Source: Spirometra erinaceieuropaei
Lineage: Eukaryota; Platyhelminthes; Cestoda; Diphyllobothriidea; Diphyllobothriidae
Length of the DNA stretch: 64,000 nucleotides
Direction of reading: 5' to 3'
Assembly: GCA_902702965.1 (NCBI GenBank)
Contig: CACRXP010000396.1
Span: forward strand, 541,250-605,249
The position numbers and the translations under genes are program-made. Below the pieces are notes generated by a model. It was not told where the DNA came from. It saw nothing but the letters and a program-made list of their open reading frames with translations, and ran no database searches. Positions 1-56,768 of this stretch are shown in pieces (position 1 is the stretch's first letter; each line of letters opens with the position of its first letter).

Positions 1-645
1 CTCAAATAAATTTCTTCTATAAGGAGTGTTTTTATATTACATTCCGTTGGCGAATGTCTGAGTACTTTAATTTTTTACAGTAAGGCCGAAAAAAATTTGA
101 CGCTTTCGGACGTTCCTTTCACTTTGCTAAGAGATACCGTTATTTTTCGACCGCAAACTAAGGATTGGCTGGATGCGTCATTACTGCACTTTAGGGCACA
201 AAATCGCATAGATCTGCTAATCTGAATTCTATAAATCGACAAAAATATAGTTCACTTAAAATAATCTTTGGTTTAAGTAGTTAAGTACCACGGTTACCAT
301 CAGACAAAAATGGAAATTTCAAATCCGGGAACCTGTGTTTATTCATACTCTCTGTAGTATATTACTCTCCCTCCAATTAAAAACGCGCTCAGATAAACAA
401 CCGAAGTCCATAGCAGTTATTAGCATAGGCAATTGCCTGACTACACCACGACGTCTATTTTCGACCAACTTTATGGACATTTTGTTTCAAAAAGTTACGT
501 TGACACAATTTCTGCGCAAGATGAAGACATTTCCCTGAGAAATCTGAGCGGGAACGCAAAGGGCGCAACGTTTAAGACGTGCCTAATTCTCCAATCAGAT
601 TCCGTTACCAGGTTTCTTGAGATAGGTCACGTACTGTATATACTT
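1..645 (+). repeat. Dispersed repeat R2, copy 1 (MITE-like end)
   Basis: From about 170 the sequence aligns, with many changes, to 2060-2516. Shared blocks include tgcactNtagggcac, cttaaaataa and atttctgc. The right end reads ggtcacgtactgta, similar to the terminus of the TA-MITEs, so it may be half of a related foldback element. The first 170 bases show nothing recognisable, nor do 660-920. Confidence 0.45.
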
Positions 646-7689: not shown

Positions 7690-7880
7690 GGAATAACCTC
7701 TCTCGAATAATTTATTTGAAGGTAATTCAGTTTAGAAGACAGACGGGGAATGCTGGGGGACCCACTGATGAGCCGAACTCCTCTCAACTGTGCCATGTAA
7801 CAGCAGAATATCAGCGAAACACGCGTGTTTGGGCTTTTAACCAGTATATGAACTCTAAGTGTGGTAACTTCTTACCTTTA
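7690..7880 (+). repeat. Ribozyme repeat B, monomer 3' of CA-1
   Basis: This is the repeat family found also near 20630, 47000, 51260 and 54600. Shared blocks are gacaggNaatgctgggggaccc, cagaatatc and gcgaaacacgcgtgt, then gggcttttaNcN. It starts about 50 nt after the CA-1 poly(A) signal and carries the best-preserved family-B hammerhead core. Confidence 0.7.
7761..7833 (+). ncRNA. Hammerhead ribozyme, family B, best-preserved core
   Basis: Stem I is CCCA (7761-7764) with TGGG (7830-7833). The core CTGATGA is at 7765-7771. Stem II is GCCGA with TCAGC (one C-A mismatch; UCGGC in other copies pairs fully), closing a ~34-nt loop. GAAA is at 7816-7819. Stem III is the palindrome ACACGCGTGT, and the cleavage position is GTT just before TGGG. 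Every invariant hammerhead base is present. Confidence 0.72.
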
Positions 7881-7950: not shown

Positions 7951-8497
7951 GTCGTCTGTTGTAGACAGTCTGGTGCACTATCTACAATGAGTGAGCTATT
8001 CTCCTCTGATTTTTGCCTGATTACTCAGCTGTTTACGCAAAGTTGCTGCCGCACCGGCGACTGCCTGCAAATTTGCAGTCCAAGTAGTAGACAGCGGGGA
8101 CTTTAGATCAACACCGACGCACAGTTTCCCTCAAATAAACCGCCAAAATACTAACTGTAAGCCGATCTGCTCTAAATTTGTTTTCGTGGGTTTGCTGAGG
8201 TCTAGATCGTACGCTAACTGCGTGGGAAGAATTCACTGTGTGGAAGAAAAAAAACAGGCATTTGCAGATCTCGCGAAATTTGTCGCGAGAAAGTTTGCTT
8301 ATGGCACGATACGGCTAAGAAGATCTTAAACCTTGCGCTTATTTCCCGCATAAAGTTCGTCCTGATTATAAGTGGAAAGCATCTGAAGATAGGGAAGGAT
8401 TCAGCCTGGACTTTTACACTTGCCACAACATGCACAGGAGCAAACCATACCTTACCCGCGTGATCAACAATGGCCTTGATAATGCTCTGAATTTCAG

Positions 8498-12820: not shown

Positions 12821-12842
12821 TTCCACCGGCAGCGGGAGTAGT

Positions 12843-12940
12843 AGCTAAAACGCCAGACACGTGATTCGGCGACTTTTTGCTGCAGCATGACGTAACTGCA
12901 AGGCGTTCGGGCCATCAATGTGTCCACCGACGCTCTGGCG
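12843..12940 (-). repeat. Ribozyme repeat B, highly degenerate copy
   Basis: On the minus strand ttgatggcccgaacNccttgcag...cacgtgtctggcgttttagcta aligns to the family-B hammerhead region. The core reads TTGATGG and GAAA is GAAT, so it is inactive. The sequence from 12950 to 13550 is relatively G+C-rich and shows no recognisable feature. Confidence 0.5.
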
Positions 12941-15430: not shown

Positions 15431-18400
15431 GTGAGATTGCCCCTTTCAACAGAGTCGTTTATTTTTCAACAATGGCATTGCTGTTTACATTAATTCTCAT
15501 TTTCAAATACTGCCATCCATTGTACATAAATTCCCTTCTGTCGCAGTTATAGAAACTAAGCCCGTGTTTTTGTCCTCAGAAAGTCGACGTTACTTCAGCC
15601 AGTGGGTGTTTAGTGCTGTAAGGGCCCTTGGCACCCCCAGATGTTTTAGCGCCTGCATCACAGAATTAATAAAAAGAACTCGGCCGACACACTTTCGGCT
15701 GTTAACACGATCGGGGCGGAAAATAGCGCTTTGCATATATCTCATACCATGTTGAAGGCTTCATCCTGAATTATGCGATATTCGTTTAATACCTACAGTA
15801 GATTTGCTAAATCATGACATGTTAACCAAAATCCTGAAATGCGTTTTCGACACGAAAATATAACTTGAGGCGGGGTTTAATCGTAACCGTCATGCAGAAT
15901 AATCTTATAATAATTCAGTTACTAGAGAATGCCGGATTTTGAAAGAACTTCCCTTCTGCCGCCTGCGTCAATAGCCTCTGTAAAAAATAGCCACTTAAGT
16001 AGTATGAATTTGTTCATTGTTTTTAGATGCACTTATAAATTCAAATATATTCCATAGAAAACATATAAAAAATATTCAATCTTTTACTCGCATGGTAGAA
16101 AATTACGTCTTTTAAAATTTTATACTTGACGCAAGAACTTCTCCGATTTCAATAATTTTGAACCCGACCTGTCGTTACAGTCACACTCGGGTTGTTCAAA
16201 TTAAAAGATGTATGCTTACCGTGTAAGGGAAAGTATAAATTTCTATAGGTTATTGAGAAGAGACCATTTGGGGTTCATAAAATGTAGCAGTGGATTTGAG
16301 CCAAAGTGTAAACTTCAAAAGCAACAAAAGTAAATGCAGAGACGCGATGTTTTATGAGCGGGCACTTCAGGACTATAACAATATCATAATTAGAAACTTT
16401 TTAAAACCGAATTATACCCCTCTTTTAAGTAGGAAATTTAAGGAAAACGTTATTTTCTACCAAGTTAATAAAAGAATGCATAGTTTTTTTATGAAGTGTA
16501 TTTGCATTTACAAGTGAATTGAAAAGAAATGAAAAAACTTCATGCTATATATGTAGTTATTCATTAACAGAGTGTAGTTTTTGTAGGCGGCCGGAATGAA
16601 GTACGTTCAAAAGCCGGCATCCCTTAGTAATTAAATTATTACAGGATTAGGCTGCATGGTGATTAATGCTCAAACCCTCTTAAGTAATCTTTTCAAGTCA
16701 AAAACACACTTCGGAATTTCGGTTAACCTATGCTGTAGGTTAGGAATGCTTTGACGCCCCGAACGAAAGATTAAACCGCACAACCGCTTAGTGTCCGGAC
16801 GGCCACTTGACACATTAAGGGTTTCAAGGCCAAAAACAACTATAAACTCGACAAAATATGCCAAGATGTTCAGCTCTGACACAACTTTTACAATAAAACT
16901 GCAGTCATTGTTTGGATTCTATAAGACGTTGAACGTTTCGGGCATATTTTGAGACGTGATCTCCGGCCCCAGCTACTTTTTTCGATTTTTCACTCTAGAC
17001 CATTGGCATTCCCGAGACAAACACCACATTACTTCTACAAATTCATGAAAGATTACACGATCGCCGGGACAAGAGCTTTATTAGCCTGACGTTTCCGATT
17101 CCTGCTCGAATCCATCATCAGAGACAAAAGCACATAAGGGTGGTTCATGCACATGCGGCTGCAGTATTTATAGGATGCAGTAGCCATGCCATCGCATACC
17201 TATGAATATTCACGGCTCCCTCCCCTTCATCAGGGATAGTTGCACGTGGCGTGATGGCCGACGTTCGCGCCGCTAATTGCTGCAATTTTATCACGTGCGT
17301 TGGATGTTGGTGTGATGATTGCTCGACCATCTGACGCATCGACCCTGGTGTTGGGAAAAGTGTTCACTTGTGCGCTCCCCGCGTGGCCAATTACTCCACC
17401 TAGACGAAGTCTCAGCACGGTGTATTGAATGGGAAGATCATTGCATTTGTTAATAGATTGGGTGTCAATAAACCATGACTCAAGCAGCTCCCGGCTCAAG
17501 CGGTTGTTACCTCTTGCGAGAATTTCGGCCTTGGCAAATTTGAGTGTGTGGCCGGAAACCGTCGAATGAGCCGCAACTTGAGAGCTGACGTCATTACTCC
17601 GCACCGCTGCAGCGTGTTCGGCAATTCGCGTTTGGAGTTGTCTTCCGGTTTCTCCGACGTAGTTGCTTTGTCCGCAAATGCACCAGATCCGATAAACGAC
17701 TTCAGACGTTTCTTGCCGTGGCAGTGAGTCTTTTGGTTTCATGACCAGACGCCTGATGGTTGCTTCCGGTTTGTGTGCAACTCCAACCCCAAGTGGTGCG
17801 AGAAGGCGGCCAACAGCTTCCGAAATGTTCTTGACATATGGAAGCGCTCGGCAAACTTTGGTGTCCGTGCGGTTAGGCCTTTCGTCCCTTTTGCATATGC
17901 ACCGATTGACAAAGTTGCGCGGATAGCCATTGGGTTTGAAGATCCGTCGGAGGTATTGTAGTTCGGCAATTTGTCTTCCGGCTCACTGCAGTGCGTTTCG
18001 ACACACCGATAGAGCGTCCTTAAACAACTGCGTTTGTGGCTGATTGGGTGGTTGCTGTTGAAGTTCAGTACTTGCATCGTATTTGTCGCTTTCCTGAACA
18101 CTTTGGTCTTTTGTCCACCACAATCCTTGCGGCATATGAGGACATCCAGGAATGCCAGCTGGTTGTTCTCTTTCTCCTCCATCGTAAATTGTAGGTCCGA
18201 GAAGACCGCATTCAGACCTTCCTTGAATGTTAGCAGTTGATCCCGGTCGATAACGACGAAGGTATCATTCAAATACCGGGCCACATATTTCGGACCAGAA
18301 CCGCACGGACACTGAAGTTTGGCGAGGGCTTCCATATGTCAAGACCGAAGTTCTGGGCCCGGTATGTGGATGATACCTGCATCGTCATCGAACGGGATCA

Positions 18401-21400
18401 GGCATTGACATTCAAAGACATCCCTTGAGTTACAGGCAGTTACGGGGTGACCTGATACAAGCCTTCCGTATCATACGCGGTCAGGACTGCAGCCTCGTAC
18501 CGGAGGACTTCTTCGAGTTAGCAACCACCACAAATCTACGAGGCCATCCATTCAAACTACGTGTGACAGGGGCCAGACTGGACACACGAAAGTTCTTCTT
18601 CTCCAACAGAGTGCTATAAGCCTGGAATGCCCTGCCTGTGGATGTCGTTATGTCTCCTTCCGTCGGGGTCTTTAAGAGGAAGCTGGATTTGTGTAGCAGT
18701 GTCCACTAAATTACCACCCGTTCTCTGTAACCTCGACAAATTCCGTTATTATAATACTACTTGCTATATTTCAGTAACATTTTAAATTGAATTTATTATT
18801 GTCCCGACCCATCAACTACGCTTACTGACATGCACCTATGCAAATTTTGTCACCGGATATAGTATTTATTTCACTGCACTAGAAACGACCGCTCTACTAC
18901 TGCTCGTACCACTTAAATTCGAGACAGTTTGTTTGTCCGTACAGACCTGACGCTTTTCCGATTATTTGTTCCTTTATGATACCTTTTCGAGTTTTTGAGA
19001 TTTTGCAGTTGCTTGTAAACAAATAGGGAGTTCAAAGGTGAAGACCTACATTTCCCTCAATAAACTGAACTGAACTGAACATCTCAACGCCGTCTTCGCG
19101 GACATTCAATTTACGATGGAGGAGGAAGAGAACAACCAGCTGGCCTTCCTGGATGACCTCGTATGCCGCAAGGATTGTGGTGGACTAAAGACCAAAGTGT
19201 TCAGGAAAGCGACAAATACGATGCAAGTAATGAACTTGGCGGAAAGCTGTGTGGTGATAGAGTTTGGCCTGTGGTGGTTGCGTATGATCGACAGACAAAC
19301 GTAGTGACTGAACTGACTGATAAAACTGCAGTCAAGGTTTCATTTATGTCGTTAGTTCACAATCTTTCAAGCCGCGAATTTGAACATGCCAAAACAGATT
19401 TTAAACGTGTCACATTTATTATAATGATGAATGCCCTGAGTGGACCTACTGTAGACGCAACGCCTTCAGTCACACACACCTCTCAGCCATGCCTCTCATC
19501 CATTCCGCTTTCTGCCCGATATAGGTCCAGCCTGGTCCTACACAAACAGCCAATCAAATCCCAACACCTGGAACCGTATTAGCCCCACAATGTGTTCAGG
19601 ATGGGCCCAGTCGCCGATCAACTTGGATTCCCAGAATGCCACCTATTTGGGCGAAAGTAGCGATGCCGAGGTCGATATTGTTGTGCAGAGCACAGAGGGC
19701 CCGTCGTCATTCACCGCTATAAACAATGGGCATTCCTGTAAGCCTCAACCCCTCCCTTTCCCCCCTCCTCCAGTAACTCTTGGTGAGCCCTGTCATTCCT
19801 GGTTAAACATAGAAGTTTAATGCCCAAATTATTTGGTCATCCCAGCGCGTGAACGACCTGTGCGTTTTAAGCCAGCCATTGAATCATGGCCTTGTCGCAC
19901 TGCTGCACTGTCGATCCGAAAGTCCAAGCACTCTTTGCCGGAACGCTCAAATCATCCGCTGAACATCTCCAACTGGCCTCACGCATACCGGCGCTTTTAA
20001 GGGCAACGGTATAGAGAACGACCCCGCTTACCTGTCAGTAGACTATGGATCGTGTCATGCGGAGTTTTATCTTGGCATTTGCAGGCTGTTGCAGAAACTA
20101 CACTGCCAACGTAGATCACTTCCCAGGACCTCCCACCTTAACTCAAAATCCATCATTTTGTGAAATTTATTTTTTGTTTATCGTTTAATTACTACTCCCA
20201 TTTACGTTGTCGTACAATAGCGTAGGATAAGACTTCCGGCATAAATCCAGGAGATTTCTGTGTTTTCTTTCCTTTTGTCAGCTTACTGTTTAGCGTGCTA
20301 CCCCATCCATAAAACTCCCTTTACCATAAATCACGTATGGCACGATTCACAGTCTACTGACAGTTAAGTGGGGCCATTCTCTATACCGATGCCCTTTTAA
20401 GCACTCCAGTCACCATTCAGGGCATTTTCTCATTCTTGACGTGTAGTGCTTTCTAGCTATTTATTAAATTTAGATTAATAGAGAAATTAAACTCCACGGA
20501 ACTCAATAGATGAGAGTTCAGAGCCTTCTCACTGTACCCACATGGGACTATACATTTTTCTTCTATTTAGCTTCTGAGGCTGGCTGTACTAGTAAAGTTC
20601 GTTTTTACAACCTAACTTCTGGTTAATGGGATACCATACTAACAGCACAAGTAATAGCCAAAAGCCCGTACACCCGTGTTCCGCCGATATTCTGTCGCTG
20701 CATGACACAGCTGCGAGGGGTCCGACTCGCCAGTGGGTCCCCCAGCATTTCTTGTCTACTTTCTGGTAGATACTCCAATTTAGAACTTGTTGCTTTTTAA
20801 CTCCTCTAGAAATGATCTGTAAAGTTTGAGTAGATGAGCATATTCTAGGTCTATCGACGCAGCTGGAAATCTTTATGCATGAATCGGACAGAAAATTTAT
20901 CGGAGTGAACATGCCTCCGGCCTCTTAAAGTTGTGCTGGCCAGCAGCGACCAAGCCAATCTCATTCTTTTCAGACGTTTTAGGATTAAAGGCTCCAACTT
21001 AAGTGGTTTTTTTCAACCGGACTAATCCTCGTAAACTAGTTCTGGAACTAAGAAAGAGGCTCAGCGAAGGGGAGGACCATCTAATTATATACGAAAACCA
21101 ACTCAGGCGATGTCCGTCATTCTTCCTTTGGATAGGCCCGGTCCGAATAACCGTGCAGCAGACATATTAAGTGCAACCATATCTTTCCTCAACAGGATAT
21201 AAAAATTTTTGACCATCAACGTGCGGAGTTTGCTATCAAAGTTCAACGAGCTAAACATATACCCCCATGATTTATACCCTGACGTAATCTCTCTAACAGA
21301 AACCTGGTTGATCCAACACGTGGACGACCGTGAGTTGGCCTTGCCTGGCTACCAGCTGTTTAGAAGGGACAGGGAAGGGCGTCAGGGAGGGGTACTCACC

Positions 21401-24400
21401 TACGTGAAACATGCAGTATATCTTTCAGAGAAAACCGACAAATATTCGTGTACTTCCGAGGCAATGTGGCACTCCGGACTCACCGAGCTTTGATTTCCTG
21501 ACAGTCTATCGACCGCCAAGAAAGGAACATATTGCCGAGGCCTCTCCTACTGGAGGAGCTCAAAATTTTGCTACACGACCGGATATCCTTACCATGGGTG
21601 ACTATAACGGCCCACGCAAATAGCTTAGAACAGACCCTTGATGGTAGTTTTGTGAACAAAACACTGAAGTTACTTCTCACTCAACACGTCACGTTTTCAA
21701 ATAGAGTACGCGAAGGCGAACAGGCCAACTGCCGTGATCTTGTCCTTACGAAATAACAGGACAGCAGTACTGAGGTGTCGTGCCTACCCCCCACCCCCCT
21801 AGGGAAAAGTGACCACGTCGTTCTACTATGGGATTACTCGCCCTCTTCCATGTCCGAGAGACCCATGACAGTTAGAATAAACCTTTGGCACGGGGGATTT
21901 CGGACAAATGAGGGCTGAAATTGCACGCATTGAGTGGAACTCCGCATTTGCTAAAGACTGGCAGCGGTTGCGAGAAGTAATGCGCAGACTCATCATGACA
22001 GTTCGACCATCGGTTTCGATGATGTCCACCGTGTGCCCCACAGTTGCAGCAGCAATGGGAGCAGGGACGGTGACTTACGCAGGGGTTTATAGTGCCGGTA
22101 GACTTGCGAAGCATCTACCTACACTCTCTCCTCCTCCCTCGCCCGAGCCCGGTTTCAAGACAGAGCGAAAGCTGTGGAAGAAATCACATACTGACAAGAG
22201 GCCAACGTCCATAAATGCGTACAAAATTCAAAAGAATCGAGTCAAGGGCCTAATCTTCAGGATGAGAAGAGAATTCGAACAAGATCTGCTTAACTTTGTA
22301 GCGGAGAACCCCAAATTATTCTACGGTTACATAAGGCAGGGCACGCGAAACAAGGACCCAATACCACTGCTAAGGACTGCCGAAGGTGAAAATTCCATTG
22401 AAGATAGAGTGAATGCCGATCATCTATCAAATTTTCTCGGTTTGTTTTCAGTAGGGAAGATGGATATAACCCTCCCACGAGTGACTTCGAAGTTGGCTAC
22501 AATCATTGGGATCGTCCAGTTCACCGAGGGCACGGTTCTGATGGAGCTGATTTAGCAAAAGGAATCAACATCACCAGGCTCCAATGAGATGCCGACGAAG
22601 ATTTTGAAGGAACTCGCTGGCGAGTTGGCTAAACAACTCTCTATGCTTTTCCATGCATCCCTTGAGGCTGGATGTATGTCGGATGACTGGAAATTAACGT
22701 GGACTACGCGGCTGTATAAGGACTGAGGTCGGGTCCCGGTGAAAAATTACAGACCAGTCAGCCTCACCCCCATTTGCTGCAAGATTATGGAAAAAATAAT
22801 AAAGCAACAATGAATGCAGTTCCTTGAACAAAACCATCTGCTTTCCGATTCCCAGCATTGATTCCGAAAAAGCAGATCCTGTGTGACAAACTTGTTCTAC
22901 AGTCCGGAACACTGAACTCGGGCTGTTGATAGAGGAGATATGGTGCATACCATTTATATCGACTTTAAAAAGGCCTTCGGCAGTGTGCCTCACCACCGCC
23001 TTCTATACAAACTCATCCGTACACGAGTGCGAGGTAAGCTTCTGATGTGGATTCGAAGTTTTTACTCGGCCGCTCTCAAGCCGTCCACGTCGGTGACCAG
23101 CAGTTTGCCGAGGTTGCCGTTAGGAGTGGTGTTCCCCAAGGCTCCGTTCTTGGCTCTACACTGTTCCTCATATATGTCAACGGCTGGGCAAACGAACTGG
23201 ATTGTCATGTCGCAATGTGTGCTGATTATATTAAGATCTGGAGTACCATCCGAAATGAAGTTGACGAAGCACGGTTGCAGACAAACCCAGATTTCCTCGA
23301 ACAATGGTCGTACGACTGGCTTTTGCCGTTTGACCTAAACAACGGTGACTTCCTACGAATCGGTGGAATCAGTTCTCCTAACCGCAAGGTCTACCGCCTG
23401 ACTGACTGCAAGAAGTCGACGCCTAGGAGGACTCTCTGAGGCCTTCGCTGCACTGCTTAAAGGTAGCCAAGTCGGAGATGTCCATCCTATGCCTCGTCAA
23501 ACGGGCCATCTCTTCCTTTGATGAAGACTGCTTCGCTAAAGTCTTTTGAGCATTCGTGCGGCCGTATCTGGAGTTTTATATCCAAGCATGGAGATCCTGG
23601 ACCGTCAAAAGCCTTAGCAAATCCAACGGCGAACAACCAAACTTGTAACAGGACAGGGGTCAATACCCTAAGAAATGCTGTCGTTCCATGAAAGAGCTGC
23701 GAAACATGCGTGTCTGGGCTTTCGGCTAGTACCTTGATGTTAGTATGGTATCCCCTTACCCAAAATATATTACTAACTCGGAAGATTAAGATGCGATTGC
23801 TGGAACAATAAATTCATTGGCCTGAAGTTTCGGATTCTCACTCGAACCCATCATCAGAGACATTCGCAGATAAGGGTAATGGTTGCACAAGGAGTGCCGT
23901 ATGTATAGCACGTGGCTGCCGTGGGACCATACGCGTACTCTAATTAACAGCTCCCGCAATCATCGCTGGGATGGTAATGGATGCGATGGTGGCTTGTCAG
24001 TCCGCGTCCGAGTCATTAACGGCGAGGATTTCGTTATTCGTGTTGGATGCTGGTGTGACGATTGCTCGGCAAATTGGCTCACGGTCACTGGGATAGTTGC
24101 TCGCCCGAGCCCTCCCCACGTGACGCAACAGTGGAATCAATCCTCAGCCAATTGGGAGCGACAGACGAAACGAAGACCCTCATTCGGCACCAAAAGTCAT
24201 CCCTCCTCATGGCTCATAGGCCGCGCGACTGCTTTCCAAGGTCGAGCGCGATGCACTTAAGGAACTCAGGGCCGACAACGACCTCGTTATCGTGCCTGCT
24301 GACAAGGGGCGTTCAACGGTCGTATTGGACAGGACAGACTACAATCAAAAAGCCAAAAGCTTGTTGGAGGATCGTCAGTCCTATGTCCCATGCGAATCCA

Positions 24401-27400
24401 ACCCCATGAAAACGCTGACACGCGAGATTAACGCGACGCTGTTGGCAATGGAGAACTCAGGTGCAATATCACCAATCGACCGATGCATGGCGAGAGCACA
24501 AGAAACAGCCCTAGCCCGATTCTACGGCCTCTCAAAAGTGCACAAAGAGGGCTCTCCTCTCCGGTCTATCGTATCATTAAAGGGCACTCCAACCTACGGA
24601 CTGGCAAAGTGGCTGTTTCGGCGTCTCATGTTACTGACCTCTGACTGTAACACTAAAGCCAGCTCGTCAACACAGTTCTTAGAGAAACTTAAAGGAGTAA
24701 GTGTCCTGCCAAGCGATGTCATGGTTTCCTTTGATGTCAGGTCCCTTTTTACTTCTATCCCGTAGGACCTGGCAGTCGAGACCATCGAACTACTCCTACG
24801 AGAGAAATATGACGAAACGAAGAATCGTCTCGGACACGCCCAAATCATCCAGCTCCTGAAGTTCTGTCTCAAGACGTACTTTACGTTCAAAGGAACAATC
24901 TACGAACAGGTGAAGGGAACGCCAATGGGTTTGCCGATCTCGGGACTCATAGCTGAGGCGGTGCTACAACGGTTGGAATCGCTGGTTTTCCGAAACCGCA
25001 AACCGAAATTCTTGGCTCGGTAAGTGGGTGACACCTTCGTCTTCATCGAACGGGATCAGGTGCTGACATTCAAAGAACATATCAACGCCATCTTCCTGGA
25101 CATCCAATTTACGATGGAGGAAAAAGAGAACAAGCAGCTGGCCTTTCTGGATGTCTTCGTATGCCGCAAATATTGTGGTGACCTAAAAACCGAAGTGTTC
25201 AGGAAAGCGACAAGTACGACGCAAGTATTAAACTTCAGTAGCAACCACCCGATCAATCACAATCGCATTTGCGTAAGGGCTCTATACCGGCACGTTGAGA
25301 CGCACTGTAGTGAAATGGGAGACAAACTTGCTGAATTACAATATCTTCGACGGGTAATAAGAGCCAATGTTTACCCGCGCAACTTTGTAAACCAGTGCAT
25401 ACGAAAGGGACACCAGAGACCAAATCTAACCGTCCTTAAATTTTAGCGGGCTCTTCGGTACGTGAAGAGCGTCTCGGAAGCCGTCAGTCGTATTCTCACC
25501 CCACTTGGAGTTGGGGTTGCACACAGGCCGGAAGCCAAGTCACAAGGCCGAAAGGCCTACTGCCACGGCAGGAAACGTCTGGAGTCGTTTACCGGATCTA
25601 GTGCAGATGCGGACAAAGCAACTATGTCGGAGAAACTGGGAGATTACTCCGTACGCGAATTGCCGAGCACGCAGCAGCAGTGAGGCGGGGAGACGCTAAC
25701 TCTCAGGTGGCGGCACACTCGATGGGACCCGGTCATATTTTCAAATTTAAAGAGGCCGAAATCCTCGCAAGGGGTGACAACCGCGTGAGCCGCGGGGCCG
25801 AAAGACCGTGCAACTGACAAGAAGACGAGCAGAGTATTATTACCGACAAAGACAAGAAGACGAGTCCACAACCTGCAGGTGAGTGGCCAAGGAGCCTGAC
25901 GGAGGCCGGAGTTGCCGTGTGGCTGGCTGATGAATCTAAATATGCCAGAAATACCGAAACGGTCGGCCAATAAATTTCTTGTTCCAGTGATCGCATCTTC
26001 GTCTTCTGAACTGCTACCTGGAAATCGCCTGTTCGCTTCTATCAGTATACTACTAACTGCCTGTCGGTAGTTAATGAATATTACTCGGTTACCCGCTGTG
26101 GTTGATGGACATCATCCGAAATATTCCTACATAAATATTTCGGTCTGCGCATGTAGACCTCGAATATACTTATCTACTCCAAGTTCGTAGTTAATTTCTG
26201 AGGAAATTAAAAACCAACGGCCTACCTTTCTCTATAACTCAATACCCTTTTATTTTTCTGACTTATACAGTGCTCGTCCGCGTTCCTCGGGGAAAATGGA
26301 AGGTAACATTAAATGCCAAAGCAAAAAACTACTACGTTGTTGACGGATATCATTTTCACTGGGGAGGTGCGAATGACAGGGGTTCGGAGCACACTCTGGA
26401 CGGCCAGTCTTTCCCGCTAGAGGTTTGTCTTTGTCCACTGTTGCATATCACTTATGGCAAACCTTACATCAGACGTATTCTCATGGACAGAACTGAAAAG
26501 AAGGACAGAAGAGGGGGAGAAGGGGTTGAAAATAAAGGAAGGCAAGATAATACAGATCAAACGATCGCTCCTGTGGCTAACCCCCTTTGTAATCAGGGCC
26601 AGTTCCCCCCGAGAAGACGGACACTAAAGGTGCTGTATTCGAATGTGCAGAGCCTGTTTAACAAGATGGATGAACTCAGGACTCTGATCGACGAGCACAC
26701 GCCAGATATCATCGCCTTGACAGAAACATGGCTTTCTGAAGCTATTGGAGACCATGAGGTATCCCTCAGAGGCTGCCAACTGTTCAGAAGAGACAGGAGA
26801 AGCCGAGGAGGAGGGGTCGCTGTCTATGTTAGCTACAACCTAACCGCGGTCCCCGAGCATAATCCAACAACAACAGCGAAAGTCGAATTCCTATCTTTAA
26901 CTATCTCCACCAAATATGCCAGGCCGCTGGCGTTTGCAGTTGTGTATCGTCCCCCAAACCAGATTTCCGAACACGATAGCCTTCTCCTAAGGGAACTGAG
27001 CAAGACCTGCTCGAACAGAGACGTCCTTATTGTAGGGGACTTTAACGCCCCCAATATCGACTGGCAAGCTTGGACGGTTGCGGGTCCATCGAACACATTT
27101 GGGCAACATTTGCTTGAATTGGCAGCAGAAAAACTACTTTTCCAGAATGTAACTCTCGGAACACGTGTTAGGGAAGGGCAACGTTCAAATTGCCTCGATC
27201 TGGTGCTCACTCGAGATGAGGAGAGTGTGCTGGATATACAAGATCTCCCGCCAATGGGTGCTAGTGATCATATTGTGATGCTCTTCGAGTATTCCATGTT
27301 CTCCCAGCCTAATTCACCTGAACAATTACAGGCAAATATCTGGAAGGGGGATTTTTCTAGCATGCGAACGCAAGCCTCAGCAATACCGTGGACAACCACA

Positions 27401-36510: not shown

Positions 36511-36924
36511 GCCATATCCTACCGAAGTATAAGCCCTTGACGGCGGCCACAAGCACAGGCTACGCCAATGTGGGCTTGCAGTTGGATGAAACAGTGTAAA
36601 AATTGGTTTGCCGACGTTGTTCAGGGCTTTCCCAACTCCTCTCATTGCTGTGAGTTCTGGCAAACTGATCTACGAGGCTGACTGAGGATTAGGGATCAAA
36701 AAACCCACTTGAATAAGAAACACATGTAACTGGCTTTGGGATTGCAAAGCAGGCATGCGGACCAGGTCTTCATCTTCCTCCAAGACATTTGTCCTCAATG
36801 CATCGTATAATCTCCGTAATCGATCAGCCTAAATGAGTGGACGGGGGAGAAGGCGATGACCATAGACGATGTGAGGATTTGGTCGGTAGAAACAGTTTCT
36901 TTTTGAAAGTACTATATTTTGTGG

Positions 36925-37302
36925 TAGGGGGCGCTCACCGATCGTTTCTACGGCACTCATTCGTTCCGCTGAGTCTTACGGGCTCTCTCTCGAGCCCAAC
37001 CAGCAGCCGCACAGCGGAGCATGATATAGGTAGAATGGTATTACCGACAAAGATAAGAGAGACTGGAATGGCAATTTCTGGCTTATTAGCTGTCGTCAGC
37101 CAGTTATACCCAACCCCGGGGTGTGGAACACCCGGGCTCGTGGCCCATTGGTTTGCGGCGTGGACTTATAACTAACAGGTCTCGAGTTCGAGCCTCGGGT
37201 GTTCCACACTTCGAGGTTGTGTATGACTGGCTGACGACGGCTAGTAAGCCAGAAATGGCCATTCCAGACTCCCTTGTCTTTGTCGGTAATACCATTCTGC
37301 CA
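36925..37302. mobile_element. tRNA-derived SINE, inverted duplicate
   Basis: From 36925 to 37132 the SINE reads on the minus strand, and from 37133 to 37302 on the plus strand. 37036-37132 and 37198-37302 can therefore pair as a long hairpin, with the tRNA-like part (ttggtttgcggcgtggac, gagttcgagcctcgg) in the loop. From 37305 to 37855 nothing was recognised. Confidence 0.75.
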
Positions 37303-45884: not shown

Positions 45885-46290
45885 AAGGACGCTCGCCGAT
45901 CTTGTTTCAAAATTCATTCGCCCCGATATGCCTTAGAGCTTCCTCTCAAGCTCAACCAGCAACCGCACAGCAGCGCAACGGGACGAGTGATCTCCGCAGT
46001 ACGATGGATGAGCGCTCCTCCACAGTTTTACACTTTTGATCGCAACCGGCAGGACAATGACTCCGGTGCAGAGGCGTTGGGTCGCGAGATCGAACTCCAG
46101 GTATTCGGGGTTGGGCACGACTGGCTGACGACGGCTAATAAGCCGGAAATGGCCATTTCAATCTCCCTTATTTTCGTCGATAATGTTATTGCGACTATAG
46201 TACGCACCGCTGTGAGGCTGCTGGTTGGGCTCGTGAGAGAGCCCCAAGGCACAAGGCTCCGTAACACGATCGGTAAGCGTCCTTTTTACC
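45885..46290. mobile_element. tRNA-derived SINE pieces in inverted arrangement
   Basis: 45885-45975 is the SINE head on the minus strand (tcaagctcaaccagcaaccg). 46040-46195 is the body on the plus strand with gactggctgacgacggctaa. 46205-46290 is another head on the plus strand (tgaggctgctggttgggctc). From 46300 to 46995 nothing was recognised. Confidence 0.65.
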
Positions 46291-47124
46291 GGTATATATA
46301 TATATTTGAAAAGTGGTGTGAATTTGGTGAAAGTTTGTCTTATCGTGAACATATTTACGTGCACCTTACCTCCGAACACGCATTAGGGGTGCATCCGTGG
46401 CTCTTGCCACACGTGGCGGTCAAACGGCACCCTTTTTGTAAAACTTAAATCTCATACATACTGGCTCTTCAAGCATAACATGCGTTAGATGAGGGTGTTT
46501 AACAAATTCGATCAGATATGGTAGATGTAAGACAGATCCAGTAGGTTCCAACCTCTAACGGCGCAGTTTCACTGCCCTGAGAACGAAGCCAGTGTCATGT
46601 CAGTCAACCCGCCTATTTCGATTCACGGTTGGTTTGACTAGGACAAGCCACTGGCGTGTTGGAGGGGAGTGTGTTTATTCGACCCAGCAGGAATTGGTGT
46701 TTCTTTTCTTCCGACAATCAAGTTATCGTAACACGCTAAGTGTTGTCGCTTGGAGCAACCTGGTTCACTTTACGACTGTTGGTCAGACTGAAATATCTCT
46801 CCTTACTGTGGTATTAATGACCCTTTTCCTTGCATAACATTAGAAATCCCCTCAGGGACAACATCATGTGCGACACGTGTAGATTTGCCGCCCGCTGCAC
46901 TCACTCCCACACCCTGGTCGACTTCACTTTGTGTTAACACCAATGTGAGAGTGCGAGTGAGACAGAAGCAGCGCAACTCCACCTGTTTATATACCTAACT
47001 GCTTGCATTATTTAATTTCCGAGGACAGTAGTTCACCAACTTGGAGTAAATCTTTCGGAAATTAAACAAGGCAAAAGGGAACTGGAGTTCGTATGCCGGA
47101 ATATACACGAGGAAAGCTGGGGGA

Positions 47125-47197
47125 CCCACTGATGAGATGAAACCCTCGCAGCTACGTCAGGAAACGGCACAGGATCGGCGAAACACGCGTGTCGGGA
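47125..47197 (+). ncRNA. Hammerhead ribozyme, family B, dimer copy 1
   Basis: Core CTGATGA at 47129-47135, GAAA at 47180-47183, stem III palindrome ACACGCGTGT, cleavage triplet GTC. Stem I has CCCA against GGGA, so one base is probably lost. Stem II GATGA/TCGGC is imperfect. Confidence 0.6.
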
Positions 47198-47470
47198 CTT
47201 TTAGCTAATACCTGTGTTGTTAGTACGGTAAATCATTGCACAGTTATATACTACTGACTGCCTGTTGTCCGTTTGTGAATTTTACGCAGTTATTTTGCTG
47301 TACTTAGTGGATTTCAGCTCAAATTCTCATATCCAATTTCGGACCGTGCTTGAAAAGGTCTGTTTCAAAAGATTTAATCCAAGTCTGCACACTACTTACC
47401 TCGGAAACTAAACGAGGCAAGGCGAAACTGGAGTTTCTATGGCAGAAAACACACGTAGAAAGCTGGGCGA

Positions 47471-47529
47471 CCCACTAATGAGCCGAACCCTTCGCAGATG
47501 CGTCGGGCAGCGAAACACGCGTGTCTGGG
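47471..47529 (+). ncRNA. Hammerhead ribozyme, family B, dimer copy 2
   Basis: Stem I CCCA/TGGG is perfect, and GAAA, ACACGCGTGT and GTC are intact. The core is CTAATGA, losing the invariant G5, and the stem II loop is 14 bp shorter. Probably inactive. Confidence 0.6.
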
Positions 47530-47752
47530 CTTTTAGCTAATACCTGTGTTGTTAGTACGGTAAGCAATTGCATAATTCTGTACCTAACTGCGCCCAAGGC
47601 ACCGCTGCCGGATCCGCCTCATGAGAAATTAATGCATTTTACTTCCTGCAACGATCGAAATATCTTGTTTCTTCGACAAATGGTCATACCGTAATCCCTC
47701 CTCAATTATCTAGTTCCCCAGTAGTTTACTATCGACGCATGTCTGTTGAATG

Positions 47753-47845
47753 TCAATTATATTTCATGGAAAACATGCACAAAATATTCATTCTTCTACT
47801 CAGTCGGTAGGGAACTACGTCTTCTTTCAATTCGCCTCCCTCAGG
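47753..47845. mobile_element. Palindromic TA-MITE fragment
   Basis: tcaattatatttcatggaaa, acatgcacaaaatattcatt and ctactcagtcggtagg match the MITE arm. Both ends are missing. Confidence 0.65.
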
Positions 47846-47859
47846 TACTGAGATAGCAC

Positions 47860-48092
47860 CAACCAGCCATAGACAGATTACTGTACAGCACACTTAGTAA
47901 CGTTAATGTTTTTAACCCTTGGAACAATTCGTTTATCTGTCTGGCTTTGAAATCTTTGCCAATCTGAAGAAACTCTGTAGCTGTTTGATGTTTCCATTTT
48001 CAACTTTTTGATATAGTTCGCTTCCTTGTAACAAATAGGGAGATCAAAGGTTCAGCACCTATATTCCCATCCAATAAACTGAACTGAAATAA
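47860..48092 (+). mobile_element. LINE 3' end fragment (TGAAC-type tail)
   Basis: gtaacaaatagggagNtcaa, then aggttcagcacctatattcc and caataaactgaactgaa match the 3' UTR at 19010-19079. A 5'-truncated copy lacking coding sequence. Confidence 0.65.
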
Positions 48093-48402
48093 ACCAGGCC
48101 AGTTGATGCGATTTTTGCACTCTTCCTTCATTCACTACCCCCGAATGCTACCTGAATGTCACATTACATCCAACCGTGAAATCCACAGCCCGCGGCTCCG
48201 AAGAAGGCAATTTTTTTCCTCCAATCGGGTCAGATCTCGGTAACTCCCTCCTAGGTAAACCACACTGGGCAGTAAAGTAAATTAACCAGCTGACTCATCA
48301 TTTCAGGATTTTAATAAATGCATGCATTTAGTATTACAAAACATGTTCAATTTACTGTTCTCAGCAAAGGGGTCTCGGAGAATTTTGTTGGGAAAATACT
48401 TT

Positions 48403-48612
48403 TTAACAGGAAAGTCTGAAAAGCGTCAAGCTCAGGCTGAGTAAGAGGAGACTGGTTGCGACGGAGGTTTGCGTGGCTACCGACCAGGATTTGTACAACA
48501 CCCGTGGTTGCGGCGCCTGAATGGCATTTAGCGGTTGAAGCGGGCGAAAGTTATCCTGCATCGGCTTCCCGCCATCACTGTCCCCGAACCGGAGGGATCG
48601 TAGTTTCTCCAA
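48403..48612 (-). CDS. CA-3 exon 5 (C-terminus with GPI-type tail)
   Basis: The minus-strand acceptor cttgcag precedes 48612 and the stop TAA is at 48405-48403; 210 nt. It encodes LEKLRSLRFG, KPMQDNFRPLQPLN and RVLYKSWSV, then a strongly hydrophobic tail of Leu, Ser and Thr that ends the protein. A possible ATTAAA poly(A) signal lies about 90 nt downstream (48310-48315). Confidence 0.92.
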   Translation of the reverse strand: MEKLRSLRFGDSDGGKPMQDNFRPLQPLNAIQAPQPRVLYKSWSVATQTSVATSLLLLSLSLTLFRLSC

Positions 48613-51600
48613 CTGCAAGTCCAGAAAACACAAAAAACATTGGTTTACCAGGCATTGGTCCGTATTTCATAAATTTCTCATGGTATGGACCGAAAATGAT
48701 GAAAGTAATGCAACCTTTTGTTCACAGAAGCAGTTTTAGAATAGCGGAAACGTTGGAGGATTGGGGTGGCTTCTTATCATCAAAAAACCCCGTCCACTGA
48801 GTTCAATAGCCGTTTTCGGTCTACTAAGTAAAATTCTACTTTTACCATCCTAACTTGATATTCCGTGTTGTAGACCATCGGTTGTACAGAATGCGTTGCA
48901 TAACCAGTGACGGTGCGCGATGTCCGTAGGCGGTGAATGGTCTTAGGTGACTGCTTTTGATTTCACTCGCTGCGAATATCTTTCGACCAAACTCCATTTA
49001 ACTTCGCCCGGCACAATGTCTACCGCGCCCTGCACAGCAAAGTGAGAGCAGGCACTGGGATTTGAGCATAAATTAATTTATAGTGAAGACTTGCACAGCA
49101 TCTACCGCACTCTTTTTTCCCCGCCCACCTCGGCCGGCGTCAAGACATAGTCAAGAAGACTGGAGCGCTGAGACGACGCAGGTGGCCGGTACGGCGCAAA
49201 CCCCCACCTAGGTGTAGTACCACCACATTCCCCCCCGGCCCACAACAACACTGACCGGGATTTTGTACCTCAACAAAAATAGGGGGTGGAACGGATCCCA
49301 ATCGGCGCGGCGGGAGCCGGCACATGGGCGTGTCACTACATCCGAATGTCGACATCTGTCGTTAGTGTGAATTCGCAGTAACGCCTGTCGGACTCTCATC
49401 TAGTCCCCATGTTGGTCCAAAGCATTTACTTGCAACCAGTAGAATGAACTCAGATAAATCAGCCGCCAGATCCCAAGCAGTGAGGATTAGGCTCCCCCCC
49501 CCCTGCTTGACGGTCCGGTGTTTTGACTCTCACATTTGCCTTTCCCACCCTCCTGTCTGACAGATGCATCTCTTCAACTCCCCCACCCCCGAGCAGCATT
49601 CAGCCATGTGGTCGGCTGCGCGGACGTTGAACTCATGCACAGCCTGAGCGCCCTCTTACGCCATTTTTTGTTGCCGGACTTCCTTGTCCGCCTACGCTGG
49701 CAAATTCCCTTAGCGTACTTGTATTTATCACAACCATCTTTCAGCTGGAGGACAACAGCAAACAGAGATATTCGTACGCTTAACTGTGTGGCTGCATATC
49801 AAGTCGATTTTGTCCAGTCTTGCCTTATCAACAGACGAGATCTCGGCCGGTTAATTATAGGGCATCCCTGCCTCATTTTCCCCTGTTCCCCAATATTCCT
49901 CGATTCAATCTTGCTCCTTTTCCAGAATCCGTCAGCTAACCTCAATCGAATGAGCTGAGCTTTCTCTGCGCTCAACCTTTCCATACAACTGGAAACTCTC
50001 TGAATTTTCCGTTAAAAAGGAGGAGTTATGGACGTCGTCTGTCCTTATGCTTGCAGTGCGACGCATTTACCGTCTTCCCTCACGGTCCATTTTCAGCTTT
50101 CAGCCCCGGCGAAATTGAAAAAATCCATGAACACAGACAGAAGGGAGACGACAGAGAAACTTACGTCTGCAGTGGTCACGAGGAGGGGATTTCTCATCAC
50201 AGTCCATTGGACGTTTTCCGTGCAGGGCGGCGTAGTGAGAGAACCGAAATAGCGGAAAAACTGGTTCTTTTTAGTGGGCAGGAGAATATGAGGGTCAAAC
50301 GACTGTATTTTGGTGGTCGTACTCGCATTTGTGAGCTGGCCAATAATTGATAAGAGGTTGCCCATTTTTGACAGACTGGATTTGGACTGATCAGTGGTCA
50401 GTTGGAAGAAGACGCCAATCACAGTCAACCCTCTTGGGGCCGATTTTGCCGTCGAGAAATTGGCGTACATGGAGGAGTAGGCGACAATGTGCATCTATGA
50501 ATGGAGAGAGCGCATGGCTGGTCTTTTAAGTAAGTACTCTTGAAAAAGTGTGCATCATGTCTTGCTGTGGAACGCTCAAAATGAAATAAATTCGTTAAAA
50601 TGTGATTGACGACCCCTCGTTTGTTCGAAGAGGTCTTGATGATAGTACTATCAGTCACATGAACTGACAATGACAAGTAAGACTGATGCTATGTTAGGTC
50701 ACTTTTGGCAATTTCTAGCAAGCATATAGAGATATGTTAAAGTTAAAAATCATCTCTGGGAAAAGTAGCAAACTTGATTATGGAAATTTCTGACGCTGGT
50801 TCTCTAGGTTGTCGCCAGACGTAGAACAAATGTGCGAAAAGCTGTTAAAATTTTAAACGCTCTTCACATGCTAAATTCGTTTGATGACTGCCCAATGAGC
50901 AGCCGCTGCGTGTGTCGTCCCGTTCTGATTGGCTCTTTCCACCTGTCCGTGGGATTTTTGTTCGCGGCATCAAACCGAATGCTCCAAATAACGCATGATC
51001 AAATTGCATGCCCTCGAGGTACTTTTGGACGTTCTTAAAAGGACAGACGTTGAAAATACTAAGTTTGCCCGACGCACTGATAGGCTCGGTACCCAGAGTA
51101 TGCATGGCCACGTGGGACTGGCGATCGCGCCTTGTTCTGCCAGTTTATGTCGGTGAATGCATGCAGAGGCGGATTTCTCAGTTTAATCACCGCCAACTGC
51201 ATCGCAGTCGTCTAACGGCCTAGACAGTAGAGCTTACATTTCTTCAGATACAACGATTCCTAAATTGGAGTATCTACCAGAAAGCAGTCAGGGAATGCTG
51301 GGGAACCCAATGCCGAGCCGCACCCCTCGCAGTTGTGTTATGCAGCGGCAGAATATCAGCGAAACACGCATGTATGGGCTTTTGGCTATCACCTGTGCTG
51401 TTAGTATGGCATCTCTCTATCCTAAAGACAACTGGGGATGTTTAGATGGACTGATCGGCCCGGCCAAGTGAATTCATCCGATAGGAGAAGTTTTAAAATT
51501 ACTATGCAATATCAGACAAAGACAAACCTCTAGCGGGAAAGTCTGACCGTCCAGAGTGTGTTCCGAACCCCTGTCATTTCCACCTCCCCAGTGAAAATGA

Positions 51601-54600: not shown

Positions 54601-56768
54601 CGATGGACTCCAAGCTCGCAGTTAATTTCTGAGGAAATTAAACAGCAACTTTTTTCTAAATTGGTCTATCTACCAGAAAGCAGACAGGGAATGTTGGGGG
54701 ACCCACTGTCGATCCGAACCCCTCACAGCTGTGTCCTGTGGCGGCAGAATATCGGCGAAACACGCGTGTATGGGCTTTTGGCTGCTACTTGTGCTATAAG
54801 TATGGAATCACCTTAACCTAAGAAAACTGGTTTAAAAAGCGCCGAAAAGCAGCGGCACTCCTGAGATGTCTGCAGTCTCATTTGTGGAGTTTAGTAGTGT
54901 TGCAAACAGAGCTTTTTTTGTAAATAGCACCTATTCCGACCTTTTCGATGCGACTGAGGTAGTTTGTTAATTATATTAAACGTATTGCGAAGTGTGCTAT
55001 ATTAAAAACGCGTATTTCATATTGAAATCTTAGGAGACACCTGAGCAGCGGTGTTGTTTAAAAATAGACGTGAAGCACTCGATTTTTTAGCTTAATCGAG
55101 CAATGACTTTCGGAGCGTTATAATTTTCTACAGTTTTTCCTGTTAAAAATAACAATTTCGGGAAACATTATTAACTTGAAGCTCATAATTTCTACAAATT
55201 ACTGTTGACAATATTAGTTGCTTATGTTGGAGTGCCGCCCATTCGTCGACCGGCGGGTACGCTTGAAGTGATTCTAAAAATGCTACCCCTTGAGAATCAA
55301 CTAAGGCCTACGTTCTGCTTTAATTCAGGAGCGTTTGACCTCATCGTATGCTGTATGGTGACAAGTACGTGAGGCTCGGAGTGGTTTAGTAAAGTTTTAT
55401 CGCTCAAAGGTGCTCTCAGGCGAAATGAATTGTCCAAGGGGATTTTAGTTTCTTAACTAATAATTCATAATCAGAAACGTCTGGCAAACAGCTGCCTTCA
55501 CTGCACTACGTAAGAGAAACCCCGCCTACATGTGGAAGATACGGCCAAAAGTGTCAAATTTTATTTAGTCTCACCATGCAAAAATGCAAAGTATACAGAG
55601 ATCCGTCAACAGAGTGCAGTAATAAAGCACTTTCTAAAGAGGTAAATTATTAAGGAAAGTTTTCTTATTGATCGAAGGCATATTCATACTGACTTTCGTT
55701 GTCGACAGTCAGTTTTCTCGAAAATGAAATTTCATGTTTGAATGAGTGTTTCAATGGGACCCAGACGACTAGCTTCGTGAAAAGGAGCGCCCGATTACCC
55801 ACTTATTTGGTAAATGCCTTCACGAATAATCTTATTTTAAAGCTTTTAACAGACAGGTAATTCAGAATCTGTCTTTGTGGACGATCGGGTGAAAAGACTG
55901 AAAATCATGAAGTATTCAGCAAAATTTCGAGGCCGATCTGAAATTCAACGTAATCCAAACCGAACAGAAAGTGTAAATTAATTTAACGGAAGAAAAGTTC
56001 TCTCTATAAACAGAAAATGGTATGCTTACGATCACGCCTGTCAGATATATTTAAATTTATTAGGCACCGACTGGCCTCATGGCATGTCACCTTATGAAAA
56101 TGTTTGTTCCTAAGACGTCCCCATCGGTGAAATCAAGCAAATTTCAGTTTCTCTTGTTAAATCTCCTCTCATTTAACTAAAAAGACTCAAGGATAACGCC
56201 AAATGCTGGAAAACTGTTTTGGAGTCTACACTCGGAATGTAGGCAGTTGACAAACCGTCATATATGACACACTACTTATTAAACGATATTTAGGTGTAAA
56301 CTTCATTAGAACACTATTACTAGACGTTATTTTATGAATACTTTCATATTTACCATGTTTTTGGTATGAGAATACATTCTATACATTTAAAAACGAAGTT
56401 TCCAAGTTAGAGCCATTTCTGACGTTTTCGGGATATTGCGCCTTTCAAAATAAATCGGAATTTCTAAACAACGTGACACTGCCTTTAATGTTTCTTTTAT
56501 GTTTTTAATTCATTTAAACTTCTATTTAATTAACATAGAAATCGGACTCATAAAATGGTGTCAGTTTGCGAGGGCACATTTCATGAATTAGGTCACTAAC
56601 TGTACATGTGCTATGTCCTCTGTGCATAGCTGGAAAAGAGATTTTCTATTCAGAAGGTAGAACTGGTGAACATGAAGAAATAATTGTTCTCTTAAGGGGC
56701 CAGGACTTACCGCTTGATGTCAGACATCCCACGACGAGGAGCTCTAACGCAAGGAGGACTTTTTGCAT
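48403..56768 (-). CDS. CA-3: complete five-exon GPI-type alpha-carbonic anhydrase (320 aa)
   Basis: Read on the minus strand, exons are 56768-56711, 54172-53960, 51679-51528, 50494-50165 and 48612-48403, summing to 963 nt. Exon lengths and phases equal those of CA-2, except that exon 5 is one codon longer. All catalytic positions are kept: NNGHS shuttle His, Gln92 and two His in QFHFHWG, Glu106 in GSEHTL, His119 in MHIVAY, and LTTPPC. The signal peptide is MQKVLLALELLVVGCL and the tail is a hydrophobic GPI-type stretch (SLLLLSLSLTLF). The first ~30 nt of intron 3 still resemble CA-2 (gtttgtctttgtc...ttgcata), suggesting these two are closest relatives. The gene is tail-to-tail with CA-2. Confidence 0.92.
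48960..49380 (+). repeat. Repeat R4, copy 3, in CA-3 intron 4
   Basis: gcacaatgtctaccgcgccc, ctgcacagcaaagtgagagc, cagcatctaccgcactc and gacgacgcaggtggccgg align with 36220-36400 and the minus-strand copy at 63650-64000. From 49390 to 50160 nothing else was recognised. Confidence 0.55.
50165..50494 (-). CDS. CA-3 exon 4
   Basis: The acceptor ttcatag precedes 50494 and the donor gtaagt starts at 50164; 330 nt, phase 0. It opens MHIVAYSSMYANFST and contains FFRYFGSLTTPPCTENVQW with the Thr199/Thr200 pair, ending VTTAD. Confidence 0.93.
51258..51440 (+). repeat. Ribozyme repeat B copy in CA-3 intron 3
   Basis: ctaaattggagtatctacca, gaaagcagtcagggaatgct, then the hammerhead region 51306-51378. 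The core is ATGCCGA, so it is dead; GCGAAACACGCATGT and ATGGG remain. It is antisense to CA-3. Confidence 0.65.
51528..51679 (-). CDS. CA-3 exon 3 (zinc ligands 1 and 2)
   Basis: The acceptor atgcag precedes 51679 and the donor gtttgtc starts at 51527; 152 nt. It encodes VNIPDGLWTITLNDEAEGF, then SQFHFHWGGGNDRGSEHTL with Gln92, His94, His96 and Glu106. Confidence 0.93.
51990..52215 (-). repeat. Repeat R6, copy 2, in CA-3 intron 2
   Basis: Inverse of 35365-35600: gcaattatttcgcaaatgcc, aactattttcctttacatct and gtcatttactccaaatata. Sense relative to CA-3, as copy 1 is to CA-2, so it may mark shared paralogue flanking sequence, though one lies in an intron and the other beyond the gene. Confidence 0.45.
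52274..53287. mobile_element. Palindromic TA-MITE in CA-3 intron 2, old copy
   Basis: Left end cagttcagatgtgcaac, then gaaatgcgtcttcgattaga; right end ccatttcatgaggtagcaca, tctactg. Flanking TA is not preserved. Well diverged from the 995-bp copies. Confidence 0.75.
53960..54172 (-). CDS. CA-3 exon 2
   Basis: The minus-strand acceptor ttcgtag precedes 54172 and the donor gtaagtc starts at 53959; 213 nt. It encodes HHWSYTNSNTNPSKW, then MCSGWAQSPIAL with the disulfide cysteine, and ends NNGHS. Confidence 0.92.
54600..54835 (+). repeat. Ribozyme repeat B copy in CA-3 intron 1
   Basis: agttaatttctgaggaaatt, ctatctaccagaaagcagac, then hammerhead region 54702-54774 and gggcttttggctgctacttg. Core CTGTCGA is mutated, but stem I CCCA/TGGG is intact and the ATCGGC arm gives the 3' side of consensus stem II. 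Antisense to CA-3. Confidence 0.65.
54836..56710. other. CA-3 intron 1 remainder, no recognised feature
   Basis: AT-rich sequence without coding similarity. Only a ~40-bp MITE terminus (catttcatgaattaggtcac, taactgta) is visible at 56570-56604. Confidence 0.5.
56711..56768 (-). CDS. CA-3 exon 1 (signal peptide)
   Basis: On the minus strand ATG at 56768-56766 begins MQKVLLALELLVVGCLTSS, a signal peptide aligned with that of CA-2. The donor gtaagtcc follows at 56710. The exon is 58 nt and leaves in phase 1, joining the exon-2 bases ac to give Asp. A CAG preceded by a T-rich tract lies 6 nt upstream of the ATG. Confidence 0.85.

Follow-up and report, generated by a model that had tools for sequence, protein, structure and literature searches.

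A decayed retrozyme dimer in Spirometra erinaceieuropaei and the insertion footprint of its family

The dimer at 47 kb and its neighbourhood

Near position 47,000 of the window, i.e. the whole stretch of 64,000 nucleotides of Spirometra erinaceieuropaei DNA analysed here, two copies of a repeat bearing a hammerhead motif follow each other head to tail. Is such a dimer a source of ribozyme-cut RNA, or is it what remains when an RNA of this kind has been copied back into the genome? The initial annotation leaned towards the first answer, proposing that cleavage at both sites would release a unit-length RNA.

The head-to-tail arrangement with a period of 346 bp, on which this proposal was built, is confirmed: positions 47055-47261 and 47401-47591 share 76% identity, with an offset of 346 bp in the 5' part. 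Copy 1 (47055..47400, forward strand) is a full unit of 346 bp, with 85% identity to the unit of locus L009. Copy 2 (47401..47580, forward strand) is a partial unit that ends at unit position ~190-197, the end called A below. No stop-to-stop frame of at least 130 aa is listed in 47000-47600. GAAAC followed by a palindrome had been described for both units, and the corresponding 15-mer CGAAACACGCGTGTC is indeed exact in each of them (47179-47193 and 47511-47525). Allowing up to 3 mismatches, this 15-mer occurs 10 times in the window versus 1.28 expected from shuffles, 3 of the 10 occurrences being the same palindrome counted on the opposite strand. CCCA precedes the core in both units, also as described, and the 3' arm, described as TGGG-like, reads GGGA in unit 1 and TGGG in unit 2.

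The putative cleavage positions, after 47193 in copy 1 and after 47525 in copy 2, are separated by 332 nt instead of 346, a shortfall due to a 14-nt deletion in stem II of unit 2. In the decayed type I hammerhead of copy 1 (47110..47212, forward strand; core CTGATGA), one pair of stem II and two pairs of stem I are broken, as read from the alignment. The hammerhead of copy 2 (47456..47544, forward strand) appears dead: the 3' half of stem II is gone, the complete type I core is absent, and the change in CTAATGA falls at a position where the hammerhead tolerates none. The stem II loop of about 34 nt reported by the initial annotation is a property of the better copies (GCCGA...TCGGC) and not of unit 2, where this half of the stem is missing. 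Our model R1 gives 100.6 bits to copy 1 and 74.8 bits to copy 2, both hammerheads being themselves among the 44 rows of the model that scores them. From these sequences, we judged both ribozymes inactive.

The dimer is flanked by an 11-nt perfect repeat, TACCTAACTGC, found on the left at 46992..47002 and on the right at 47581..47591. Between the left repeat and copy 1 lies a short inverted arm (47002..47054, reverse strand) with its outward 3' end at unit position ~21, the end called B below; in the alignment, 47002-47060 on the minus strand corresponds to unit positions 21..309. The dimer is one old, decayed insertion of a non-coding mobile repeat. Its duplicated target site, its fixed 3' end and its inverted arm give it the look of a retrotransposition product, and not evidently that of a working source; release of a unit-length RNA from this locus is not borne out, both ribozymes being damaged. 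Locus L025, on another contig, matches the whole insertion at 91% identity; L025 and the window were therefore treated as a single insertion when independent insertions were counted. The retrozyme copies at ~47 kb and ~51 kb (window 47002-51413) also recur, in the same order and with 91-93% identity, on another contig of the genome (C170, 186304-191484), with a spacing of 4.4 kb versus 3.7 kb in the window. A segmental duplication or a divergent haplotype is suggested by this recurrence.

Other copies of the same family are scattered over the window. Their hammerhead regions are found on the forward strand at 7746..7848 (100.5 bits with R1), 51291..51393 (109.7 bits) and 54687..54789 (107.6 bits), and on the reverse strand at 20650..20752 (108.2 bits) and, in a decayed state, at 12837..12937 (61.1 bits), all of them being rows of the model. 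A further copy, on the forward strand, is split into a left half (23692..23778; 39.1 bits with R1 for 23671-23733) and a right half that starts at unit position 193 (26046..26220); it is the only copy of the window that is not a row of R1.

Another repeat with a hammerhead, of 308-bp period, is found in the window at 8495-9156 (-), 11193-11409 (+), 36922-37299 and 46104-46254 (+). A strict type I descriptor matches this repeat at C3 = 8875 (-) and 46125 (+), its unit has a B-box-like GAGTTCGAGGC although ARAGORN finds no tRNA in the unit, and the copy at 36922-37299 is two-armed and head-to-head in appearance. Similar carbonic anhydrase frames were noted at 5460-5903 (+), 33747-34268 (+), 50093-50494 (-) and 26195 (+), Pfam confirming those at 33747 and 26195 only; the latter is in one frame with a LINE ORF. 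A short TTAGGG-like array (29898-29952) lies ~400 bases past a LINE ORF.

The repeat family and its hammerhead

The search covered one genome (758.7 Mb, 1,932 contigs), whose eukaryotic nature is apparent in the window from the repeats and from the LINE and Penelope-like frames. A first search with the repeat gave 131 matches, from which the best-scoring loci were retained, so that our sample favours long, young copies. When up to 3 mismatches are tolerated, 4,945 sites in the genome fit a 29-nt hammerhead pattern, versus none for the reversed pattern used as a control. Among the first 100 exact matches listed, a spacing of exactly 346 bp is found in all 9 pairs of neighbours that lie within 2 kb on one strand, and all 11 pairs of opposite-strand neighbours are head-to-head. 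Loci L009 and L010 carry 346-bp arrays of ~5 units. No match to a 25-nt piece around the cleavage site was found in viral contigs.

Metazoan retrozymes are described (PMC7229834, Cervera and de la Pena 2020; PMC7761336) as tandem units of ~170-400 nt with a type I hammerhead, forming dimers to multimers and occurring beside Penelope-like elements that carry minimal hammerheads. Judged by its sequence, our family is a metazoan (non-LTR) retrozyme, that is, an already known kind of element, and the retrozyme-like character first ascribed to the dimer holds for the family as a whole (346-nt tandem units, type I core, many copies). The unit length is within the ~150-450 bp of such tandem units and the family has a type I hammerhead with a complete core; the GC content of the unit is 47%, for a criterion of <45% in one paper and of <50% in the other. 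Compared with the metazoan retrozymes presented in those papers, the 346-bp unit differs by its long stem II, in which a second hairpin lies within a 34-nt loop region.

A comparison with the schistosome SM-alpha repeat had also been made. SM-alpha carries a Pol III promoter. A regular-expression search, which degenerate boxes could escape, found no exact-consensus match for Pol III A/B boxes in the 346-bp unit, and the comparison is therefore loose. What the two have in common is a SINE-like repeat (335 bp in W36.2) with a type I hammerhead, as far as SM-alpha, W36.2 and W25.2 are characterised in PMC8490949.

From 81 distinct copies, 44 were picked for the alignment, diverged ones being deliberately included, and 26 of these 44 have a complete type I core. 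Variation is greatest at core position 7 (C in 31 copies, T in 13) and at the cleavage position (A in 26, C in 14, T in 2, G in 1, gap in 1), the two sites that are free to vary in a hammerhead; elsewhere in the core, 1 to 6 copies out of 44 deviate. The strict type I descriptor matches in 36 of the 69 loci L009-L077, whose membership of the family was not confirmed singly, whereas none of 100 randomised windows from a first-order Markov model gives a match. It misses both units of the dimer (47055 and 47401).

In the drawn fold, stem I is in two parts, stem II (GCCGA/UCGGC) is extended by an added hairpin (GCUGC/GCAGC), and stem III (ACA/UGU) consists of 3 pairs with a CGCG loop. The palindrome ACACGCGUGU of stem III could pair between two molecules, with a predicted energy of -16.1 kcal/mol. 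The hammerhead repeats of newt and axolotl, according to the account in PMC7229834, are similar in this respect, their tandem units of 330-350 bp having a weak stem III and a palindromic loop that suit dimeric cleavage; stem III with 3 pairs and a CGCG loop, together with the long stem II, distinguishes the unit described here.

The Rfam models and compensatory changes had been named as checks by the initial annotation. Rfam finds no hammerhead in the window, either at the gathering threshold or with E up to 5, and none in L009, L012, L017, L036 and L040. Compensatory changes among the 44 aligned copies are not above those in shuffles (0.124 vs. 0.130), with double changes at 3 pairs. As the copies would decay independently after insertion, this covariation result neither supports nor refutes the fold. 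For the monomer, the predicted optimum is a fold other than the hammerhead (-36.2 vs. -22.6 kcal/mol); the prediction makes stems I and II likely and stem III unlikely (pair probability ~0.003). With no excess of covariation and another predicted optimum, it is from the anatomy of the sequence that we infer the ribozyme. The predicted fold of the circle is more stable than 100 single-base shuffles (-109.7 vs. -91.0, sd 5.5). The core CUGACG (unit 75-80) is also complementary to CGUCAG (unit 101-106, region of the stem II hairpin), and the predicted best fold pairs the two with a probability of ~0.21. Such a predicted pairing could protect the circle from re-cutting.

Ends, arms and template of the insertions

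The parsed set comprises 30 loci (the window, L009-L028 and L049-L057), including the duplicates L025 and L051, which leaves 28 independent insertions. Perfectly repeated flanks, counted from 9 nt upwards and 9-15 nt in length, were found in 15 of the 30 loci, i.e. in 14 of the 28 independent insertions, and were not found in the other 14. In comparison, only 2 of 870 mismatched flank pairs gave such a repeat, both of 13 nt and both explained by the duplicate pair L021/L051. The scan allows the flanks to overlap the element by a few bases, so the true duplications may be shorter. Plant LTR retrozymes differ from this pattern, with a type III hammerhead and a 4-bp duplication, versus an open helix I in our drawn fold and duplications of 9-15 nt. 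Flanks were joined for 14 insertions, and an empty site was found for one of them: the joined flanks of L027 match four sources (L030, L020, L035 and, at two places, the window) straight across the junction, giving 5 matches. Between the flanks, the parsed blocks consist of unit sequence, and no poly-A or simple-repeat tail is seen at those insertion ends that were inspected.

The outward 3' ends are concentrated at two unit positions, ~190 and ~20, which together account for 37 of the 42 ends recorded in the 28 insertions: 24 at unit 188-199 (A) and 13 at unit 19-33 (B). The five others belong to L009, L010, L014, L050 and L055, the first three of which adjoin N. Among the 14 insertions with two ends, 11 have A and B head-to-head, 2 have A with another end and 1 has A twice. 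Exceptions to the two-site pattern are L018, with two A ends, and L023, with a B end only. On the repeating retrozyme RNA, A and B are ~170-176 nt apart. A repeat family with duplicated flanks, fixed ends and head-to-head arms is thus observed, in a pattern like that of the resident Penelope-like elements. Two candidate features of the ends were rejected. A signal shared by A and B (CGGTAAATTA, CGGAAATTA; CGG(T)AAATTA) is no evidence, since 357 of 5,000 random 24-mers (7%) match A equally well, and a cluster of single-arm starts near unit 29-57 was dropped, the locus-collecting search favouring long matches.

The arms also inform on the RNA that was copied. Of 43 arms, 36 continue across the cleavage site, and just one of the 43 inner ends comes as close as 3 nt to this site. 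The copied RNA was therefore generally not a monomer cut at this site, and the template was either circular or an uncut multimer. In 16 young insertions (one of them a duplicate, its pair being left out of the between-insertion count), units differ at 1.1% of positions within an insertion (188 of 16,627) and at 2.4% between insertions (6,812 of 286,574). Sixteen variants are common to all passes of their insertion, and 98 are not common to the units of one insertion. This lower divergence within insertions fits a circle, and also a homogeneous array.

The alternative that survives best takes the template to be a linear multimer, transcribed from a tandem array and left uncleaved, the hammerhead having no part in mobilisation. 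The arrays at L009 and L010 and the inactive predicted fold of the monomer speak for it, as do the hammerhead mutants of an Anolis element which, according to the results given in PMC11167929, still inserted in vitro. On the other side, the contrast between 1.1% and 2.4% and the 16 pass-wide variants are as from one circle, with the reservation that a homogeneous source array gives likewise. We consider a linear template rather unlikely.

Penelope-like elements and the candidate mechanism

A Penelope-like element is represented in the window by its GIY-YIG endonuclease end (17233..17982, reverse strand), with a match to PF01541 (E 2.6e-4; 21.7 bits, below the cut-off of 22.6). Such GIY-YIG Penelope-like elements abound in the genome, where 150 relatives were scored out of 48,641 first-look candidates. 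A hammerhead-like CTGATGA...GAAACGTC is present in the resident Penelope-like elements, where the motif CTGATGATGGATTC...GAATCCGAAACGTC is followed, after ~46 nt past the cut, by a short end CTTCTTCTTCAAG; a long end CTTCTATTG lies 35 nt beyond the short one. From 20 fetched loci, five independent two-ended insertions were obtained (L030, L035, L036, L040 = L041, L044). All five are head-to-head, and four combine a short and a long end with duplications of 12-14 nt, while L035 has two short ends and a direct flank duplication of 98 nt (L035:1214-1311 and L035:2576-2675). A further short-plus-long insertion, read by eye, is the two-armed one that splits a retrozyme copy in the window (23779..26045; short end on the left, tail end on the right). 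At this place (23692-26220), a target duplication was noted near TATTACTAACT; the ORFs 24220-24765 and 25024-25446 of the insertion have no Pfam match.

A similar architecture is found in published accounts. For Penelope-like elements, PMC3846280 describes inverted pLTRs with a 31-bp tail on one of them and duplications of 8-10 bp, and PMC11167929 reports two adjacent internal starts, with both target strands extended. Retrozyme insertions resemble the elements of these two papers in their head-to-head arms, in their usually different end on each side and in their short target duplications; as in PMC11167929, reverse transcription would start internally, downstream of the hammerhead. They differ in the distance between the two starts, ~170-176 nt in the retrozyme versus ~35 in Penelope-like elements. 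No convincing common sequence was found between the ends of the two, so that the link is one of architecture and co-residence. The retrozyme itself is without reverse transcriptase or GIY-YIG domain, the parsed insertions being unit sequence and the window copy having no frame of 130 aa. What it shares with the Penelope style is short target duplications and arms that meet head-to-head, each with a fixed end of its own.

Could another machinery leave this footprint? Mobilisation by a LINE, for example the RT element at 26195-29479, with inverted arms produced by ordinary twin priming, appears improbable. The window does contain an ORF of LINE type with domains for RT and endonuclease, and target duplications of 9-15 nt fit LINEs too. 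However, the inverted arm ends mostly at one position (the 13 ends at 19-33) and not at random, the inspected ends have no poly-A or simple-repeat tail, the 3' flank of the LINE has only a chance 9-mer in common with the unit, and it is the Penelope-like elements of the same genome that show a like architecture.

The unit might also be a solo pseudo-LTR of a Penelope-like element and not a separate element, as the insertion architecture is similar and both contain type I hammerhead-like motifs. This is decidedly improbable, given that the hammerhead and the end sequences of the resident Penelope-like elements differ from those of the 346-bp unit and that the parsed blocks hold unit sequence between their flanks. 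Plain satellite DNA spread by unequal crossing-over, with the hammerhead as a fossil, would account for the tandem 346-bp arrays but is extremely improbable, the copies being dispersed, with only 9 same-strand neighbour pairs among the 100 matches listed, and the duplicated flanks and uninterrupted empty site of L027 largely refuting it.

In the models of PMC7229834 and PMC7761336, multimeric cDNA is made from circles, and Penelope-like elements are put forward as candidates, the former paper calling them a strong candidate for retrozyme mobilisation. The insertion footprint described here, as read from the assembled sequence, supports this published guess. Relative to the metazoan retrozymes of these two papers, it resolves the insertion ends, the target duplications and the head-to-head arms. 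A possible target-site duplication around one schistosome W25.2 element is mentioned in PMC8490949; in the titles and abstract openings covered by our search, which left subscription papers mostly outside, no target duplication or two-ended insertion of an animal retrozyme is announced.

The window feature is, in our view, probably an old retrozyme insertion, in which a circularised hammerhead RNA was copied from two sites by a Penelope-like enzyme. Intact transcripts of the family would be cut by the type I hammerhead, perhaps as dimers held by the palindromic stem III ACACGCGUGU, and would then be closed into circles. A Penelope-like reverse transcriptase/GIY-YIG endonuclease would cut both target strands with a stagger of ~10 nt. 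Judging from the ends, cDNA would start inside the RNA at two places, mostly one per target strand, with site A ~50 nt past the point of hammerhead cleavage and site B near unit position 20. The two cDNA arms would circle the repeating template and join head-to-head between the duplicated target sequence, leaving at the window locus a short B arm followed by 1.5 units ending at A. Since two arms would here be copied from a repeating RNA, the tandem dimer would record a circular or multimeric template.

A stricter form of this model, in which each target strand would have its own priming site, A for one and B for the other, on circles made by the ribozyme, the arms meeting head-to-head, is more tentative, and we give it somewhat less than an even chance. 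The in vitro results of PMC11167929, where no difference in start site was seen between the top and the bottom strand, count against it, as does L035 with its two short ends; both also lower somewhat the odds of the broader model. If this two-site rule is true, the tandem dimers of animal retrozymes would be integration products of circles and not the result of satellite amplification, and the rule would also explain the tail on one side of Penelope insertions. In animals, retrozymes are an abundant source of small RNA circles, and the machinery that inserts these elements in the genome is unproven. The regular ends of the insertions turn the Penelope guess into a testable prediction, as they locate the places where reverse transcription would start.
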